From: Carnobacterium iners
GTDB taxonomy: Bacteria > Bacillota > Bacilli > Lactobacillales > Carnobacteriaceae
Reading direction: 5' to 3'
Length of the DNA stretch: 64,000 bases
Assembly: GCF_900177385.1 (NCBI RefSeq)
Contig: NZ_FXBJ01000002.1
Span: forward strand, 562,001 to 626,000
Below are positions 22,483 through 31,517 of this stretch, one piece after another (positions within the stretch are counted from its first letter, which is position 1; each line of letters starts with the position of its first letter). Made by a program: the position numbers and the translations under genes. The notes below the pieces were generated by a model. The model saw nothing but the letters and a program-made list of their open reading frames with translations, made no database searches and had not been told where the DNA came from.

Positions 22483-24163
22483 GTTTGTGTCAAGTTTTTC
22501 TCGGTCGTCCTATTACTAGGCTAGTTTGGCGTTCTACTTTTGTACACCTATCTGCTACCGCACGGCTTTGCCGTTTGCTGGCCCATCTGTTTGGAGAACG
22601 TTCCAAAAAAATGGAACCTTCCCCAAACAGACAGGAATTATCGAAAACTTTTAATTAACTGCCCCATTGCTGAAGAATGAGGGGCATACAACGGAATCGT
22701 TCCTTTCTTTGCCCCAACTGACTGACGCGTCTTTTGATGCATTAAAGACGATACACGAACGGTTTGTTTCACCTTACGTTGTTGTCTTGTACTTCTAGTT
22801 TGCTGGTGAAGATATGCTTTACGTAACGTTTGATTTAAGATCCCTTGTTTCACTTTCACCATGGCTTCACAACCGACTTCGCTCCAATGCATTCCACGTT
22901 TTTTCATCCGATAAGAAATATGGCGTTGATTCGATTCCATTGCGCCTAAACCTCTGGCATCCTTCGGTACTTGTTCTACTTTTTCTCGCCAATCAAAAAT
23001 CCGATCCCAATTTCTTAAAAGATAAGTTCGAAAACTAGTCAGTTTTTCTACTGCTTGTGTTTCTTCTAAGGTACTTTCATAAGTGTCCAACCAGATCGTT
23101 AGGGCCTCTAAATCATGTTTTTTAAGCGCTTGATGAATGTTCTGTTTAAAGAGATTACTTTGTACACCAAAAGCACGGTTCAGGCCTTGAAAGATGTGAT
23201 AAGCGTCTAATTGATTCAACACGGGATAATTCGACTGCGAAAAAGTTTCTTGGAATTTATCTGCGGTATAGCCTGGTCCACCATCGCTATTGGTAATGAT
23301 TTGAGCGTGTTGTAACGCGTAATGAGTCGCTGTAAAAGCTTGTACTTCTGCCCAAAAACCAGCCGTCTTTTTAGTCGTCATAATGGCTTTAGGCTCGTTC
23401 AAGGAGACTCTCTTTCCATTTTTCTGCCAGCCTTCATAAACAAGTGCATGATGAACCTCTAAACTTTTTTTCTTTGTTGTCCCACGGACAAATACACCAT
23501 CTGCTTCGGCATAGAAATAATCGACTTTTTTTCCTTCTGGTAACGCTGCTGACTCTTCTAGCTCAATCACCATTTCTTCGTCTTCACACGCTTGTGCTTC
23601 TCCCACTCGTTTAAGGAGGCTGCCTACTGTTTGATGGCTCATCGCTACTGCTGTCCATTCTTTCAGTGTTTCAGCGGTGTCCCGATAGGTACACTTACTG
23701 GCTAACTCTGCTACTTTGACTTCTACGAGTGGACTATGACGTTGGTATTTTCTAATCCCCAACCACTCATCTAATGGATAATGATTTTGATTCTCTTGAT
23801 CTGCCATTAAAGTACGACGGTAACGGACAGGCCCAAAAATAAATTGGACTGTTTTCCAATCTTCTCGCTTTACTTTCCATCCTTCTTGTTGCTTTTGTTC
23901 CTTAATCGTTTGGTTTATGTGTATAAATATATCTCCTAATAATTCCGTAAATACTTCATACATATAAAGCTGAATAGATTCTTCTGTAGCAATTAAATCG
24001 CTTGATTCCTTTATTATTTCGTATAATTTTGATATAATGTTATCCATAAGAAGGCCTCTTCCATTTATGTATTTGCCGTGTAAGCATACATTTATGATAG
24101 AACGCCTTCTTTATTTTTGCTAGTAAAAAGATAATATCCTCTCGAGAACTATTTTACACGTAC
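22483..24163 (-). mobile_element. Complete ISLre2-family-like element, copy 1
   Basis: A 1681-base element. The left end begins GTTTGTGTCAAGTTTTTCTC and the right end is the complement of GTATGTGTACAATAG-like sequence; specifically it ends CTATTTTACACGTAC. These are imperfect inverted repeats of about 23 bases. A perfect 9-base target duplication AGTCCCATT flanks it (22474-22482 and 24164-24172). Same length as copy 2 at 27165-28845 but clearly diverged in sequence. Confidence 0.9.
22638..24047 (-). CDS. ISLre2 family transposase, copy 1
   Basis: A 469-residue transposase of the ISLre2 (UPF0236) family. Typical segments are the FGPVRYRRTLM strand followed by DEWLGIRKYQRHSP, the acidic VDYFYAEADGVFVRG with a likely catalytic Asp (near 180), IITNSDGGPGY, and the C-terminal LGAMESNQRHISYRMKKRGMHWS. 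It is uninterrupted. The start is preceded by a hairpin whose right arm GGCCTTCTT abuts the ATG. Against copy 2 the N-terminal 60 residues differ at many positions, so the two elements were acquired separately. Confidence 0.9.
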   Translation of the reverse strand: MDNIISKLYEIIKESSDLIATEESIQLYMYEVFTELLGDIFIHINQTIKEQKQQEGWKVKREDWKTVQFIFGPVRYRRTLMADQENQNHYPLDEWLGIRKYQRHSPLVEVKVAELASKCTYRDTAETLKEWTAVAMSHQTVGSLLKRVGEAQACEDEEMVIELEESAALPEGKKVDYFYAEADGVFVRGTTKKKSLEVHHALVYEGWQKNGKRVSLNEPKAIMTTKKTAGFWAEVQAFTATHYALQHAQIITNSDGGPGYTADKFQETFSQSNYPVLNQLDAYHIFQGLNRAFGVQSNLFKQNIHQALKKHDLEALTIWLDTYESTLEETQAVEKLTSFRTYLLRNWDRIFDWREKVEQVPKDARGLGAMESNQRHISYRMKKRGMHWSEVGCEAMVKVKQGILNQTLRKAYLHQQTRSTRQQRKVKQTVRVSSLMHQKTRQSVGAKKGTIPLYAPHSSAMGQLIKSFR

Positions 24164-25748: not shown

Positions 25749-27134
25749 CACTAGTGTTGCATAAACATAGCTTAATTTGACCTCATTTCTTGTTTTTCTG
25801 AAAAAAGGCAAAAAAAGGGAGTGCTTACGCAAAAGATGACTATTTCCAGAAAATTTTGCTTATTCAACTGATTCCATTACCAACGGACACCCTTTCTTTA
25901 AGGATCTAAGTCGGTATCAAAAGATTAAACCATTCTTCTGCCGGTTGAAATAACAGATAACGAAAAAATCGTTTGATTTGGAAAACAGACTGGTTACTTT
26001 TTGTTTTTAACTTAATCAAATAGGTTAATAAACTGGCAATCATGGCTAAAATCAGCTGATTGACAACCCCTTTTTCACTTCTCGAAAAAAACTTTTTAAT
26101 CGTCATATGTTGTTTAATATGCTTGAAGAACAGCTCTATTTGCCAACGTGCTTTGTACATTTCTGCAATGTCAGTAGAGGAGCAGTCAAAACGATTGGTA
26201 ATAAACTGGAGAGTTTTCCCCTTTTTATCTTGAACGGTTTCTAAACGAAATCTGGACGTTAGATGGTTCTGAGCACCTAATGCGACCATTTGGTCGCTGA
26301 TAACGGACTCACTCTTGGAAGCTACTAATGGTTCTAAAACATGAACTTTTGTATTCTTTTTGATTCTTGTCACAAAGAAGTAGCCCTGCGAGTGCATCGT
26401 ATCTAATCGTTCAAAATCAAGGTAACCGCGATCAAACACATAAGTCGCTTCAGGTTGATTAACCAATACTTCTAACTGATTTGTATCGTGCTCGACGGCG
26501 TTAGTCAGTGTAAATTCATCTGGGTAAAGATGTTCATTATCCATAAAGCAGAGTTTTAAGTGAAGCTTAACTCCTGATGTTGTTTTACGAAAATCAGCCC
26601 ATTGATAAAGGTTTTGGTTAAGTGAAAACGTCGAAGAATCAATTAGGTAGAGACTATTTCGTTTCGTTACGGGCCTTTTATTTTTAGCCTGACTAACCAG
26701 CTGACTAAAAATGGCTAAAAGAATCTCTGAATCTATTTTTGAGAGAGTTCTAGAGAGCTGAGAATAACTGATACTAGTCATACCCATTTCTTTTTGAAGT
26801 TCTTTCGAAACAAAAGCCGCATCTATCTCTCTAAGACTTTCTTTTTCGTCATTGATTCCATGAAGAAAAAGTTGAAGAGCTTGGAAGAAACTAAGTTTCT
26901 TATGGTATTTATCAAAGTCAACAATCTTTTTTTGAATAGGGCTTGGTAAAAGATTTAGCTTAATGGAAGAAAACCATTTATTAAAAGCAGAATTTGTTTT
27001 ATACTTATCCATGTGTTAGGTCCTTTTTATTGGTCTTGGATGAGTCATCTGAGTTCAGTATAAAGGACTTTTTTGCATATTGGAATAATATAAACAAATT
27101 TGTGAAACACATAATGTTTCATGCAACACTAGTG
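25749..27134 (-). mobile_element. Complete IS4-family-like element, copy 2
   Basis: 1386 bases, the same length and ends as copy 1 but inverted (CACTAGTGTTGCAT at 25749-25762, ATGCAACACTAGTG at 27121-27134). Its own perfect 9-base target duplication is ATTGATAAT (25740-25748 and 27135-27143). It lies 30 bases from the ISLre2 copy 2 element. Confidence 0.93.
25906..27012 (-). CDS. IS4 family transposase, copy 2
   Basis: A 368-residue DDE transposase, identical to copy 1 at all but about four residues (for example REIDAAF against REMDAAF, and FRLETVQ against FRLVTVQ). The catalytic Asp motifs LIDSSTF and FDRGYLDFE and the Y-R-E-K signature are intact, so both copies look active. The leader carries the same GTCCTTT/AAAGGAC inverted repeat over the ribosome site. 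Confidence 0.92.
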   Translation of the reverse strand: MDKYKTNSAFNKWFSSIKLNLLPSPIQKKIVDFDKYHKKLSFFQALQLFLHGINDEKESLREIDAAFVSKELQKEMGMTSISYSQLSRTLSKIDSEILLAIFSQLVSQAKNKRPVTKRNSLYLIDSSTFSLNQNLYQWADFRKTTSGVKLHLKLCFMDNEHLYPDEFTLTNAVEHDTNQLEVLVNQPEATYVFDRGYLDFERLDTMHSQGYFFVTRIKKNTKVHVLEPLVASKSESVISDQMVALGAQNHLTSRFRLETVQDKKGKTLQFITNRFDCSSTDIAEMYKARWQIELFFKHIKQHMTIKKFFSRSEKGVVNQLILAMIASLLTYLIKLKTKSNQSVFQIKRFFRYLLFQPAEEWFNLLIPT

Positions 27135-27164: not shown

Positions 27165-28845
27165 GTATGTGTAAAATAGTTCTCGAGATACTATTATTTT
27201 TTACTAGCAAAAAGAAAGAAGGCGTTCTATCATAAATGTATGCTTGAGCGGCAAATACATAAATGAAAGAGGCCTTCTTATGAATAAGATTATATCAAAG
27301 ATTTACCAAATAATAAAGGATTCAAGCAATTTAATAGAGACAGAAGAAGCTATTCAAGTCTGTATGTATGAAGTATTCGCTGAATTAGTAGGAGATGTCT
27401 TCACTCATCTCAATCAGGTAATCAAAGAGCAGAAACAAGAGGAAGGTTGGAAAGTGAAACGAGAAGATTGGAAAACCGTTCAGTTTATTTTTGGGTCTGT
27501 TCGTTATTGTCGTACCTTGATGATAGATCAAGAGAGTCAAAATCATTATCCGCTAGATGACTGGCTAGGTATTCGGAAATATCAACGCCATAGTCCACTA
27601 GTAGAAGTAAAAGTGGCAGAGTTGGCGAGTAACGTTACTTATAGAGATACTGCAGATATGTTAAATGAATGGACAGCTGTTACGATTAGTCATCAAACAG
27701 TCGGTAGTCTTCTCAAACGCGTTGGATCCGCACAAGCACGTGAAGATGAAGAGAGCGTATTGGAACTAGAAGAATCAGCTGAGTTGCCGGAAGGAAAAAA
27801 GGTAGACTATCTTTATGCCGAGGCTGATGGAGTTTTTGTCCGTGGGACAAAAAAGAAAAAGAGCTTAGAAGTTCGTCATGCCATCCTTTATGAAGGCTGG
27901 AATAAAAATGGAAAACGCGTCTCTTTAAAGGAACCCAAAGCCATTATGACGACTAAAAAAACCGCTGGTTTTTGGGCAGAGATTCAAGCCTTTACAGCGA
28001 ATCATTATGCCTTACAACAAGCTCAAATCATTACAAATAGTGACGGCGGACAAGGGTATACCGCAGACAAATTCCAAGAAGCTTTTTCTCAATCGAACTA
28101 CCCTGTTTTAAATCAGCTAGACTCTTATCATGTTTTTCAAGGGTTAAACCGTGCATTTGGCGTGAAAACTACCATTTTTAAACAGCAGGTCAAGCAAGCA
28201 TTAAAGACGCATGATTTAGATCATTTAACTATTTGGTTGGATACGTATGAAAGTACGCTAGATGAAACTTCTGCAGTGGAAAAACTGACTACATTTCGAA
28301 CCTATGTAGTACGAAATTGGGATCGAATTTTCGATTGGTGCGAAAAAGTAGAACAAGCGCCGAAGGACGCAAGAGGTTTAGGCGCAATGGAGTCCAATCA
28401 ACGACGTATCTCTTTTCGCATGAAAAAGCGAGGAATGCATTGGAGCGCAGAAGGTTGCGAAGCTATGGTAAAGGTAAAACAAGGGATGTTTAATCACACC
28501 TTGCGTGAAGCCTATCTTCACCAACAAAATAGAAGTGCGAGAAATCAACGTAAGTTAAACCAAACGGTTCGTTTATCGTCGTTATTGCATGAGAAAACAC
28601 GGCAGTCAGTCGGGGCAAAAAATGGGACTATTCCGTTATATGCCTCCCGTTCATCAGCAATAGGACAATTAATTAAAAGTTTTCGTTAATTCCTGTCTTT
28701 TGGGAAAAGGTTCCTGGTTTTAGGAACCTTCTCCCAAAAGATGGGCCAGCAAGCGGAGTAGCCGTGCGGTAGCTGATGAGTGTACAAGAATAAAACGTCT
28801 AAACTAGCATGGTAATAGGACGCTCGAGAAAAACTTGACACAAAC
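27165..28845 (+). mobile_element. Complete ISLre2-family-like element, copy 2
   Basis: 1681 bases with imperfect roughly 23-base terminal repeats (starts GTATGTGTAAAATAG, ends CTTGACACAAAC). It has a perfect 9-base target duplication AACATGGGT (27156-27164 and 28846-28854). It is inverted relative to copy 1. The boundary was fixed by requiring the same 9-base duplication as copy 1, which also gives equal element lengths. Confidence 0.88.
27280..28689 (+). CDS. ISLre2 family transposase, copy 2
   Basis: A 469-residue ISLre2 transposase, same length as copy 1 but with many substitutions. The VDYLYAEADGVFVRG, IITNSDGGQGY and LGAMESNQRRISFRMKKRGM blocks are intact. The in-frame ATG at 27244 lies inside the leader hairpin; ATG at 27280 aligns with the copy 1 start. 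The leader pairs AAGAAGGC (27216-27223) with GCCTTCTT (27272-27279), covering the GAGGCC ribosome site. Confidence 0.9.
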   Translation: MNKIISKIYQIIKDSSNLIETEEAIQVCMYEVFAELVGDVFTHLNQVIKEQKQEEGWKVKREDWKTVQFIFGSVRYCRTLMIDQESQNHYPLDDWLGIRKYQRHSPLVEVKVAELASNVTYRDTADMLNEWTAVTISHQTVGSLLKRVGSAQAREDEESVLELEESAELPEGKKVDYLYAEADGVFVRGTKKKKSLEVRHAILYEGWNKNGKRVSLKEPKAIMTTKKTAGFWAEIQAFTANHYALQQAQIITNSDGGQGYTADKFQEAFSQSNYPVLNQLDSYHVFQGLNRAFGVKTTIFKQQVKQALKTHDLDHLTIWLDTYESTLDETSAVEKLTTFRTYVVRNWDRIFDWCEKVEQAPKDARGLGAMESNQRRISFRMKKRGMHWSAEGCEAMVKVKQGMFNHTLREAYLHQQNRSARNQRKLNQTVRLSSLLHEKTRQSVGAKNGTIPLYASRSSAIGQLIKSFR

Positions 28846-28920
28846 AACATGGGTTAAAAAAATGCGTAGATAACCTATTCATGCTAGAATAAAAATAAGA
28901 CATTATTGGAGGATGATATT

Positions 28921-29301
28921 ATGAAACAAGAACTCGTTGAGATTTGCCTACGTGTCAGAAATATTGACGCTACTTTAGACTTCTATACTAATCTATTTGA
29001 TTTTGAAGTTGCTAGCCGCAGAGAATTCCCTGAAAAAAAGTTTGATTTAGTTTATCTGAATTCTCCCGGTTCTTCTGTACAGATTGAGCTCACTTATAAT
29101 TATGATGCTGAGCCATATAATGTAGGAAATGGCTTCAGTCATTTAGGTGTGGCTGTCGGTGATTTAGAAAAAATGTATGAAATTTGTACAGCCTCTACTT
29201 ACGAAACAGGTGAGTTAAGAGGACTTTCAGGCGGTACACCAACCTATTTCTTTGTGACAGACCCTGATGGCTATCGCATTGAAGTAAAACGCGCAAAATA
29301 A
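28921..29301 (+). CDS. Glyoxalase I-like VOC-superfamily protein
   Basis: A 126-residue VOC-fold protein close to GloA (lactoylglutathione lyase), which isomerises the methylglyoxal-glutathione adduct. Of the four metal ligands of GloA, three are visible: Glu in VQIELTYN, His in FSHLGVAV and the C-terminal Glu in YRIEVKRAK. The first, normally His in the HTMLRV-type motif, is Glu here (VEICLRVRN). Activity or metal preference may therefore differ. ATG at 28921 follows GGAGG by 8 bases; an upstream in-frame ATG at 28906 was rejected. It lies just outside ISLre2 copy 2. Confidence 0.8.
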   Translation: MKQELVEICLRVRNIDATLDFYTNLFDFEVASRREFPEKKFDLVYLNSPGSSVQIELTYNYDAEPYNVGNGFSHLGVAVGDLEKMYEICTASTYETGELRGLSGGTPTYFFVTDPDGYRIEVKRAK

Positions 29302-29358: not shown

Positions 29359-29422
29359 ATTCTTTAATTTCCTGCTGTTTTTATTTAAGATTAAATCAAT
29401 TATTTTCTAAAAATAGTATCAT

Positions 29423-30355
29423 TTATGGTACTATTCTCCGTGATGTATCTAAATGAGGTTTTAGAGTTTTCTCCATCAATAACTTTTTCTTTTCATAATC
29501 AATATACAATCGATCACTTACTTTTCTATACCTACGCAACTTATTGTCCTCTGAAATTTCCTTTAACCGAAAATTCCCAATATATCTATAGCTAAATTTC
29601 CCGAAATTATCTTTTATCTTAGCAAAAACCACTCTTAAATCACCTAATTCATGATCAACTGTTTTACCGTCTTCACGAATATTCTCTTCTGTGATAACAC
29701 TCCAGTCTTCATTTAAGTAGTTCAACCATTGACTATGCTCTTCTTTTTCTTTTGTTGAAATAGTCGGAAACCAAACGTGCGTAAGTTCATCATCAATAGT
29801 AACTAAGAAGCTTGCTTGTTGCTAGCCTTTATAATTTTTGAAAAACAACTGGTTAGCAACGTCAGTAATTAAACGAAAGCGATAAAAATCATCAATCGAT
29901 ATATATTCTTTTTTCTTTATTTGCTCTTTAATAGATACATCTGTATCCCATTCTGTAATTTTTTTATCTACTATTTTTTCTTTTATCTCTGCTGAAACTG
30001 TCTCTATTCTCTCTGTTAATTTTTGTAATGGTAATGTTGCATCAATTCGTTTTAATTCAAATAGACTACTTTCGCGAATGGATGATAATTTTTCTTCAAT
30101 AGTTAATTCACGTTTTAAATCAGATTTAGTATTTTTTTTATGAAAAGCCTCATCTACTTCTACGCCTACATTTATTTGGGGAAAGTATAAATCGATTAAA
30201 TAGTATTTATTATTATCACCCTTTACATATTGCTGGGTTACAGGTCGTATATTTAAATAATTAGTTTTTTGCCAGATAGCATTAAGTATATAATTCTCAT
30301 AATCCTTTCGTTTAGTACGAGAAAAAGTCTTAATTAAATATTCAAGCTTGTTCAT
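29423..30355 (-). pseudogene. PvuRts1I/AbaSI-like modification-dependent endonuclease, broken by an in-frame amber codon
   Basis: A single reading frame of 310 codons with one TAG at codon 178 (29822-29824). The N-terminal half carries a Vsr/PD-(D/E)XK-like core, YYLIDLYFPQINVGVEVDEA (Asp55, Glu66, Asp68/Glu69), then His72. The C-terminal half (VTIDDELTHVWFPT, then GKFSYRYIGNFRLKEI) fits the SRA-like base-reading domain of this family. The order and about 300-residue length match PvuRts1I/AbaSI, which cut DNA containing (glucosyl-)hydroxymethylcytosine; this assignment is from remembered family resemblance. The frame continues without a shift on both sides of the stop, so it is a point nonsense mutation, a sequencing error or readthrough. 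Follows two small genes. Confidence 0.65.
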
Positions 30356-30458
30356 CTAATCCTCCTTGTAAAAATTTTCTCTTTCTTTATAAAGTCAAAA
30401 ATAAATGATTTTCTATAAAGATGATCTACTGATGGTATTATTATTGATTCTAAACTAC

Positions 30459-30674
30459 TCATCTCATTTTTTTTGATACTGTTGTAAGTCGAAAATTATT
30501 ATCGACAATATTAAATAAATAAATAAAATTATTCCAAAGTGTCGGATAATCTTTATTATCTTCAATCCAATCACGATTAACAATAATTGATACTTCTCTG
30601 ACATTACCAGTATCACACATTTTTATTGGCTCTTCTAAACCTTTTTCATATCTTATTAAAACACTAGATTGCAT
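30459..30674 (-). CDS. Hypothetical 71-aa protein upstream of the endonuclease
   Basis: No family recognised. It starts MQSSVLIRYEKGLEEPIK and ends FRLTTVSKKMR, soluble and basic. The ribosome site is poor: AGGGGA lies about 14 bases upstream of the ATG. An overlapping frame starting at about 30707 (MNIFRGKQTLYAI, then stop) reads plausibly into this one through a one-base shift, so this may be the 3' part of a frameshifted gene. It is the same strand as, and about 100 bases from, the endonuclease gene, suggesting one transcript. Confidence 0.4.
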   Translation of the reverse strand: MQSSVLIRYEKGLEEPIKMCDTGNVREVSIIVNRDWIEDNKDYPTLWNNFIYLFNIVDNNFRLTTVSKKMR

Positions 30675-30718
30675 ATAATGTTTGTTTTCCCCTGAATATA
30701 TTCATTAAATTTTTTTAC

Positions 30719-30868
30719 TTATACATACTTTGAAATGTTAAAATATTCAATTACATCTTCTAATGACCATTCTTTCTCAATAGAATTGTCATTAATTTTT
30801 TCTATAACTTTATCCAATTCCCAGCTACATGCCAAATCATATTCAGATAAAAATTTAACTCTATTCAT
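30719..30868 (-). CDS. Small acidic hypothetical protein, 49 aa
   Basis: Starts MNRVKFLSEYDLACSWELDK and ends VIEYFNISKYV; acidic and probably helical. No family recognised. ATG at 30868 has a strong GGGGGAG ribosome site 7 bases upstream, which rules out the longer in-frame start at 30913. First in the minus-strand row with the 71-residue protein and the endonuclease; a small partner or regulator role is possible but unproven. Confidence 0.5.
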   Translation of the reverse strand: MNRVKFLSEYDLACSWELDKVIEKINDNSIEKEWSLEDVIEYFNISKYV

Positions 30869-31037
30869 TTTTATCTCCCCCAATCTTAGTAATATTAAAT
30901 ATATCAGATTCACTAAATTAAGCTCATTTTATAACATATTCATATTTTCTTTACTTAATACTTAATTATAACTAAAAGATCACGCCTCTTGATTCTTTTC
31001 CATACCAATATTTTAAATATTTCTTACAAAACCTCAT

Positions 31038-31517
31038 TTACTTATGATATGGTTCATTCTTCATAATGCGAAAACCACGATAAATCTGTTCAATAAGTAC
31101 TAATCGCATCAATTGATGGGGAAGGGTCATCTTGCCAAAAGAAATCTTTGTATTGCTTCTTTTCATAACTGCTTCACTTAAACCTAAAGAACCACCGATA
31201 ACAAATACAAGGTTACTTTTTCCTTGAACACCTAATTGCTCGATTTCTTTTGAAAATTTTTCTGATGTTCGTTGATCTCCTTCAATAGCTAGAGCGAATA
31301 CAAAAGCTTGCTCAGGGATTTTAGCTAAAATTCGCTCTCCTTCTTTTTCTTTTACCTGAATCATTTCTGCTTCGCTCAATTTTTCTGGAGCTTTTTCATC
31401 TGCTACTTCTATTAACTCCATTTTACAATAGGCGCTTAATCTTTTAATGTATTCAGCGATACCCATTTTTAAATACTTCTCTTTTAATTTACCAACCGTT
31501 ATAATTTTAATATTCAT
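31038..31517 (-). CDS. rlmH: 23S rRNA (pseudouridine1915-N3)-methyltransferase RlmH
   Basis: A 159-residue SPOUT methyltransferase acting on helix 69 of 23S rRNA. The knotted C-terminal SAM site is clear ([13 protein letters not shown], then [20 protein letters not shown]) and the protein ends NEPYHK, the conserved RlmH tail. Its last 18 bases on the coding strand, GAACCATATCATAAGTAA, match the staphylococcal SCC attachment core at 15 of 18 positions. Downstream lies an accessory region. DnaA boxes flank its start. Confidence 0.96.

Follow-up and report, generated by a model that had tools for sequence, protein, structure and literature searches.

We report that an interrupted gene in a stretch of 64,000 nucleotides of the Carnobacterium iners genome (contig NZ_FXBJ01000002.1, positions 562,001 to 626,000 of the forward strand; hereafter the window) is by descent a member of the PvuRts1I/AbaSI family of 5hmC/5ghmC-dependent restriction endonucleases, which attack hydroxymethylcytosine-containing phage DNA, and is not a working member as read: the family is characterized by one uninterrupted polypeptide, whereas this gene carries a TAG at codon 178. 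It is probable that the gene was acquired laterally, as cargo of an island that resembles a cassette chromosome, and that it was silenced very recently by one nonsense mutation. The island appears to be decaying; the candidate defence gene adjacent to the endonuclease is a wreck, and the endonuclease itself has most likely been silenced. The striking single stop near a domain border is most simply explained by the ordinary decay of a defence gene, and its surroundings point to an ordinary phenomenon rather than to a split or read-through enzyme of a novel type; the island is a modest side result.

The endonuclease frame runs from 30355 to 29423 on the minus strand over 310 codons, and the TAG at codon 178, which is followed by a C, is its sole internal stop; a reading of the same interval on the plus strand was ruled out by its many stops. 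The frame, its single TAG and the lack of a shift had been described correctly in a first-pass annotation of this DNA, which left the strand unstated. A strong Shine-Dalgarno sequence, AAGGAGG, precedes the ATG (Table 1), and a search of the 2.57 Mb genome (3 contigs) found the gene in single copy. At its other end, the frame extends 15 codons beyond the end of its closest relative, the AbaSI-family endonuclease gene of Alkalibacterium olivapovliticus (locus L024), whose stop codon is absent here. This run-on, which is defined relative to L024, reaches into the distal att-like end of the island. Together with the frameshifted and partly deleted gene remnant that adjoins the endonuclease upstream, it contradicts the earlier statement that there is no other decay.

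Table 1. Features of the rlmH-glyoxalase interval (positions in the window)
Feature	Position	Strand
Glyoxalase-family gene, far side of the island	28906..29301	+
Distal att-like end: one inverted-repeat arm, then TACCATAA; overlaps the endonuclease run-on	29419..29462	-
Endonuclease, 3' part, same frame: SRA beta-barrel with aligned pocket residues, then 15-residue run-on	29423..29821	-
Endonuclease, 5' part: nuclease domain with aligned catalytic residues, linker and first 32-39 SRA residues; ends with TAG (29822-29824)	29822..30355	-
Shine-Dalgarno region (AAGGAGG) ahead of the endonuclease ATG	30356..30370	-
PDC-S56 candidate defence gene, present only as a largely deleted remnant with shifted frames	30384..30972	-
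att-like sequence at the rlmH 3' end: TATCATAA and the other arm of the 13-base perfect inverted repeat	31028..31049	-
rlmH (SPOUT methyltransferase), insertion-site gene	31038..31517	-

The call of a hydroxymethylcytosine-dependent endonuclease was borne out at the level of the family, since both halves of the frame were assigned to the PvuRts1I/AbaSI family. Pfam PF21598 (PvuRts1I-like_N) is matched by the sequence ahead of the stop (E 1.4e-32) and Pfam PF18491 (SRA) by the sequence that follows it (E 4.3e-21), and the read-through protein matches the PADLOC model mREase_II over residues 1-289 (E 1.1e-51), by which the gene is classed as a type II methyl-directed restriction endonuclease; an NCBIfam search gave nothing useful. 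HMM searches of both halves had been proposed as a check that could place them in unrelated families, and they returned the same one. With family matches on either side of the stop and in one common frame, an interval with only one stop is far beyond chance. Convincing relatives of solved structure were, by sequence, only AbaSI and PvuRts1I (E 1.2e-21 to 4.8e-20; the next at E 0.13). The structure of the read-through protein was predicted with a mean pLDDT of 88 and a pTM of 0.83, and a Foldseek search with this model returned 4oq2, 4oky and 4par as the best entries (E 2.7e-20 to 5.3e-18), whose five chains were the only ones below 0.001.

The study of PvuRts1I assigns residues 1-140 to the catalytic domain and 141-293 to the SRA domain, and names the catalytic and pocket residues of the enzyme (PMC4027163). 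E20, D55 and E66 of the window protein align with Glu20, Asp57 and Glu68 of PvuRts1I, and W195, P197, W210, N212 and E223 align with the pocket residues Trp205, Pro207, Trp215, Asn217 and Glu228; these five are all encoded 3' of the stop. The window protein thus shares with PvuRts1I and AbaSI (PDB 4oq2, 4oky, 4par) the order of the domains, the aligned catalytic and pocket residues and, in the read-through model, the fold, and differs from them in the in-frame stop within the SRA part and in the 15-residue run-on; the residues aligned with Tyr210, Ala212 and Tyr237 of PvuRts1I also differ. The 140/141 domain boundary of PvuRts1I maps to 138/139 of the window protein, and in the read-through protein Pfam sets the start of the SRA match at residue 146, which puts codon 178 between 32 (from the Pfam start) and 39 residues (from the mapped boundary) inside the SRA part. 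In the predicted model it falls in the loop that leads from the SRA helix (163-170) to the first strand of the barrel (182-187). The stop is therefore near the junction of the two halves, but not exactly between them as had been stated.

The truncated product would keep the whole nuclease domain, with its aligned catalytic residues, and miss the pocket. As PvuRts1I is proposed to dimerize through its nuclease domain (PMC4157451), one might suppose that the 177-residue product is itself under selection, e.g. as a nuclease freed from its reader or as a dominant-negative partner. We regard this as extremely unlikely: the truncated form is absent from the relatives examined, the neighbouring gene is decaying too, and a nuclease without its reader would probably be useless or harmful. 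Equally hard to credit is a split nuclease and reader whose halves are translated separately, a case that the first-pass annotation had raised, and then come together again. Each half is recognizable alone, and in the predicted model the stop precedes the entire SRA beta-barrel, as a split of this kind might have it; but ATG, GTG and TTG are all absent for 32 codons 3' of the stop, and the earliest candidate, the TTG at codon 211, has no visible Shine-Dalgarno sequence. A start at this TTG would drop the strands 182-187 and 190-195 and the pocket residues W195 and P197. A split gene was thus rejected for want of a usable restart, and by eye none of the four broken relatives found among 86 loci (see below) has a credible second start either.

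The age of the stop was approached by comparison with the closest relative (L024, which contains the locus L012). The two genes share 83% amino-acid identity, and 87% DNA identity over 916 bases; as in the window, the endonuclease gene of A. olivapovliticus comes right after rlmH and is followed farther on by a glyoxalase gene, but unlike that of the window it has an intact frame of 295 residues, no PDC-S56 remnant was found beside it, and an extra 213-aa ORF lies ahead of the glyoxalase gene. The dN/dS ratio (Nei-Gojobori) between the window and L012, the exception to pairs of which most are near saturation at synonymous sites, was 0.17 before the stop and 0.09 after it. When four outgroups were used to polarize the changes, 6 unambiguous window-specific amino-acid changes were found in the 177 residues before the stop and 1 in the 105 residues after it; the L012-specific changes numbered 9 before the stop position and 9 after, and the ambiguous ones 11 and 7, respectively. 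The 3' part has thus not drifted, and the sequence fits three cases alike: a very young stop, a stop that is absent in the cell because of an assembly error, or one that is tolerated through read-through. In this respect, the single window-specific change in 105 residues counts against recent silencing as the preferred reading, as it fits an assembly error or read-through equally. A young mutation is favoured here because of the prior odds and the surroundings of the gene. Among the three options given by the first-pass annotation, i.e. a recent stop, an assembly error or read-through, the first fits best.

It is unlikely, though conceivable, that the TAG stems from a miscalled base or a fault of the assembly and that the gene is intact in the cell. 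A single difference would suffice to produce it, the 3' part shows no relaxation, and none of the aligned active-site and pocket residues is lost. On the other hand, the assembly, with 3 contigs and a completeness of 100%, is close to finished, and single-base substitutions are generally rare at that stage; moreover, such an error would leave both the run-on end and the wrecked neighbour unexplained.

Read-through of the TAG at a useful rate, by which a little full-length enzyme would be made, is a distinctly improbable reading, even though purifying selection appears to continue past the stop. The first-pass annotation had pointed to a leaky context, and the base after the TAG is indeed a C; but the increase in read-through caused by a C at position +4, for all three stops, is cited for yeast (PMC5289835), and in E. 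coli TAG is ranked as less leaky than TGA (PMC11126739). A suppressor tRNA was rejected, as ARAGORN, applied to the regions around the genome's 72 Rfam tRNA matches, found 72 tRNAs and no anticodon CUA among them; the underlying tRNA search scored 150 of 211 first-look candidates. According to PMC5289835, near-cognate tRNA-Gln misreads UAG in E. coli without any dedicated suppressor, so read-through at a low level may occur. TAG terminates 12 of 40 ORFs hand-picked from the 66 in the window. The RNA 3' of the stop shows no stimulatory structure: when the 125 bases that begin at the stop were shuffled 200 times, 135 of the shuffles folded as well or better (z 0.48). The stop is common to none of the relatives examined. 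The read-through option thus gained no positive support. A variant of it, in which the amber codon is functional and a type II modification-dependent endonuclease is held at a trickle by inefficient read-through as a low-cost defence, would, if true, account for just the 1 window-specific change in the 105 residues of the 3' part; we give it slightly less credence still.

In the course of events that we favour, the endonuclease gene would have arrived within a small island, as its cargo, when this inserted at the 3' end of rlmH. By analogy with PvuRts1I and AbaSI, the intact enzyme would flip a hydroxymethylated or glucosylated cytosine into its SRA pocket and cut at a fixed distance through dimeric PD-(D/E)XK domains. 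A single nonsense mutation would then have ended translation past the nuclease domain and the first SRA helix, so that the pocket is missing from the product, and the rest of the gene would go untranslated, because there is no usable restart after the stop.

In a scan of 395 sampled genomes of the order, the nuclease domain was matched in 15, of which 13, including the window, were above the Pfam cut-off; the 12 others above the cut-off all have open frames of 285-342 aa, and none has a TAG at this position. Of the two below the cut-off, one (G035) has a 226-aa frame with no stop, and the other (G014, of the same family as the window) has a 222-base stretch with five stops (E 2.5e-4), which may be a wreck or a chance match; its weak PvuRts1I-like_N match (locus L018) is possibly an old wreck of the same kind of gene. 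Within the genus, where the comparison set holds one genome per species, the gene occurs in one of five genomes, i.e. that of the window, and was absent from the four others searched. A wider set of 86 loci, comprising 79 loci from a genome contig scan (the best 80 of 129 relatives) and 7 viral ones, with near-identical loci retained, included 80 loci with one intact frame, defined as a single frame matched from residue 20 or before to residue 255 or beyond. Four loci are broken at other places, L046 by a stop and L050, L083 and L086 by frameshifts, and two further loci lack a full frame because of a contig end (L098) or a diverged C-terminus (L101). As these four relatives are broken elsewhere, sporadic breakage of such genes appears to be normal.

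A residue is present at position 178 in all relatives of two overlapping alignments (17 of 17 and 46 of 46), and its identity is Tyr, Phe or Trp in 12 of the 17 and 30 of the 46, so that the position is not strictly conserved. The first alignment holds 17 of 19 matching ORFs, L003 and L017 having been dropped as one weak fragment seen twice, and five of its sequences come from plasmids (4 of the 49 records) and phages (1 of the 8 records); the second holds 46 of 73 intact ORFs. A search of plasmid DNA found no near copy of the endonuclease gene: two plasmids from Paenibacillus matched 12% of the query at 70% identity, and a further plasmid DNA search gave a 204-base match that lies only within a UPF0236 gene. 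A search of the literature on split or pseudogenized PvuRts1I found nothing beyond work on BisI homologues.

The endonuclease gene lies between rlmH and a glyoxalase-family gene. The rlmH locus was compared in 17 further genomes of the family, and in four of these (L155, L159, L161 and L162) the two genes stand side by side; there the same glyoxalase gene, about 82-91% identical and in two pieces in L161, lies about 120-200 bases past rlmH and faces it; in the other 13, no glyoxalase gene was found within 1.5 kb of rlmH. As the interval is uninterrupted in these four genomes, the window carries an insert of ~1.6 kb. The insertion is at the 3' end of rlmH and has inverted repeats, as in cassette chromosomes: a perfect 13-base inverted repeat lies at 29450-29462 and 31028-31040, and each arm occurs once in the 64 kb window, and the 1.8 kb searched holds six more inverted repeats, all imperfect. 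The sequence TATCATAA, reported in PMC6222049 as the core of SCC and ECC att sites, is present exactly at 31042-31049 and with one mismatch, as TACCATAA, at the distal end, although this 8-mer alone occurs 9 times in the window. The distal arm runs into sequence that is shared with the contig end L182, where it also lies beside a glyoxalase gene and contains TACCATAA. With two substitutions allowed, the att-like pattern was found 4 times in the 79 loci, where simple (single-base) shuffles would give 1.0, and the exact pattern occurs near the endonuclease only in L024 (position 4888) and L032 (position 4552) among these loci.

The insert resembles the Enterococcus cassette chromosome and SCC, as they are described in PMC6222049, in its insertion at the 3' end of rlmH, in the TATCATAA and inverted repeat found there, and in its variable cargo. 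It differs from them in its size (about 1.6 kb against 21-78 kb), in its distal core, TACCATAA, and in its gene content, as the rlmH-glyoxalase interval holds the endonuclease frame and the remnant only, with no ccrAB. As there is no ccr gene in the interval, we term the island cassette-chromosome-like, and not a member of that class. In another genome of the same family (L158), a second copy of the att-like rlmH end follows the first, about 100 bases past rlmH, and suggests another small island or a scar. Past the glyoxalase side of the island, the window contains two UPF0236-family genes and a DDE_Tnp_1 transposase gene (22638-24047, 25906-27012 and 27244-28689).

The remnant next to the endonuclease was identified solely through order-wide searches and PADLOC. 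The stretch 30719-30913 matches positions 4-54 of the 649 of the PADLOC model PDC-S56 (PDLC05039; E 2.6e-10), and 30459-30674 matches positions 254-319 (E 2.4e-16); the pieces are in different frames, with one more shift in addition. No match to the remnant was found by phmmer against the ORFs of the relatives' loci, nor to its pieces by tblastn against these loci, in plasmids or in Pfam; a Priestia gene upstream of the Priestia endonuclease was read as a comparison. The whole remnant matches, with 77% and 85% DNA identity, two contig ends of a genome (G160) with the same genus label as L012, one of which (L183) carries rlmH, and the other (L182) a 605-aa PDC-S56 frame followed by the glyoxalase gene. 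If the two contig ends are neighbours, as seems probable, a PDC-S56 gene appears to occupy the rlmH-glyoxalase interval of this genome. On L183, the first part of the PDC-S56 gene stops after 88 codons, near the contig end, so this copy may be interrupted too.

As the rlmH-glyoxalase interval carries an endonuclease insert in some genomes, apparently a PDC-S56 insert in another, and no insert in the four genomes of the family mentioned above, it looks like a site of defence-gene turnover, which would lie outside the staphylococci and enterococci. Both the present genome and that of A. olivapovliticus carry a PvuRts1I-type endonuclease as cargo at rlmH, between ends that are cassette-chromosome-like. 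In another genome (L185, positions 1-552), an AbiH-like gene comes immediately after a PDC-S56 relative.
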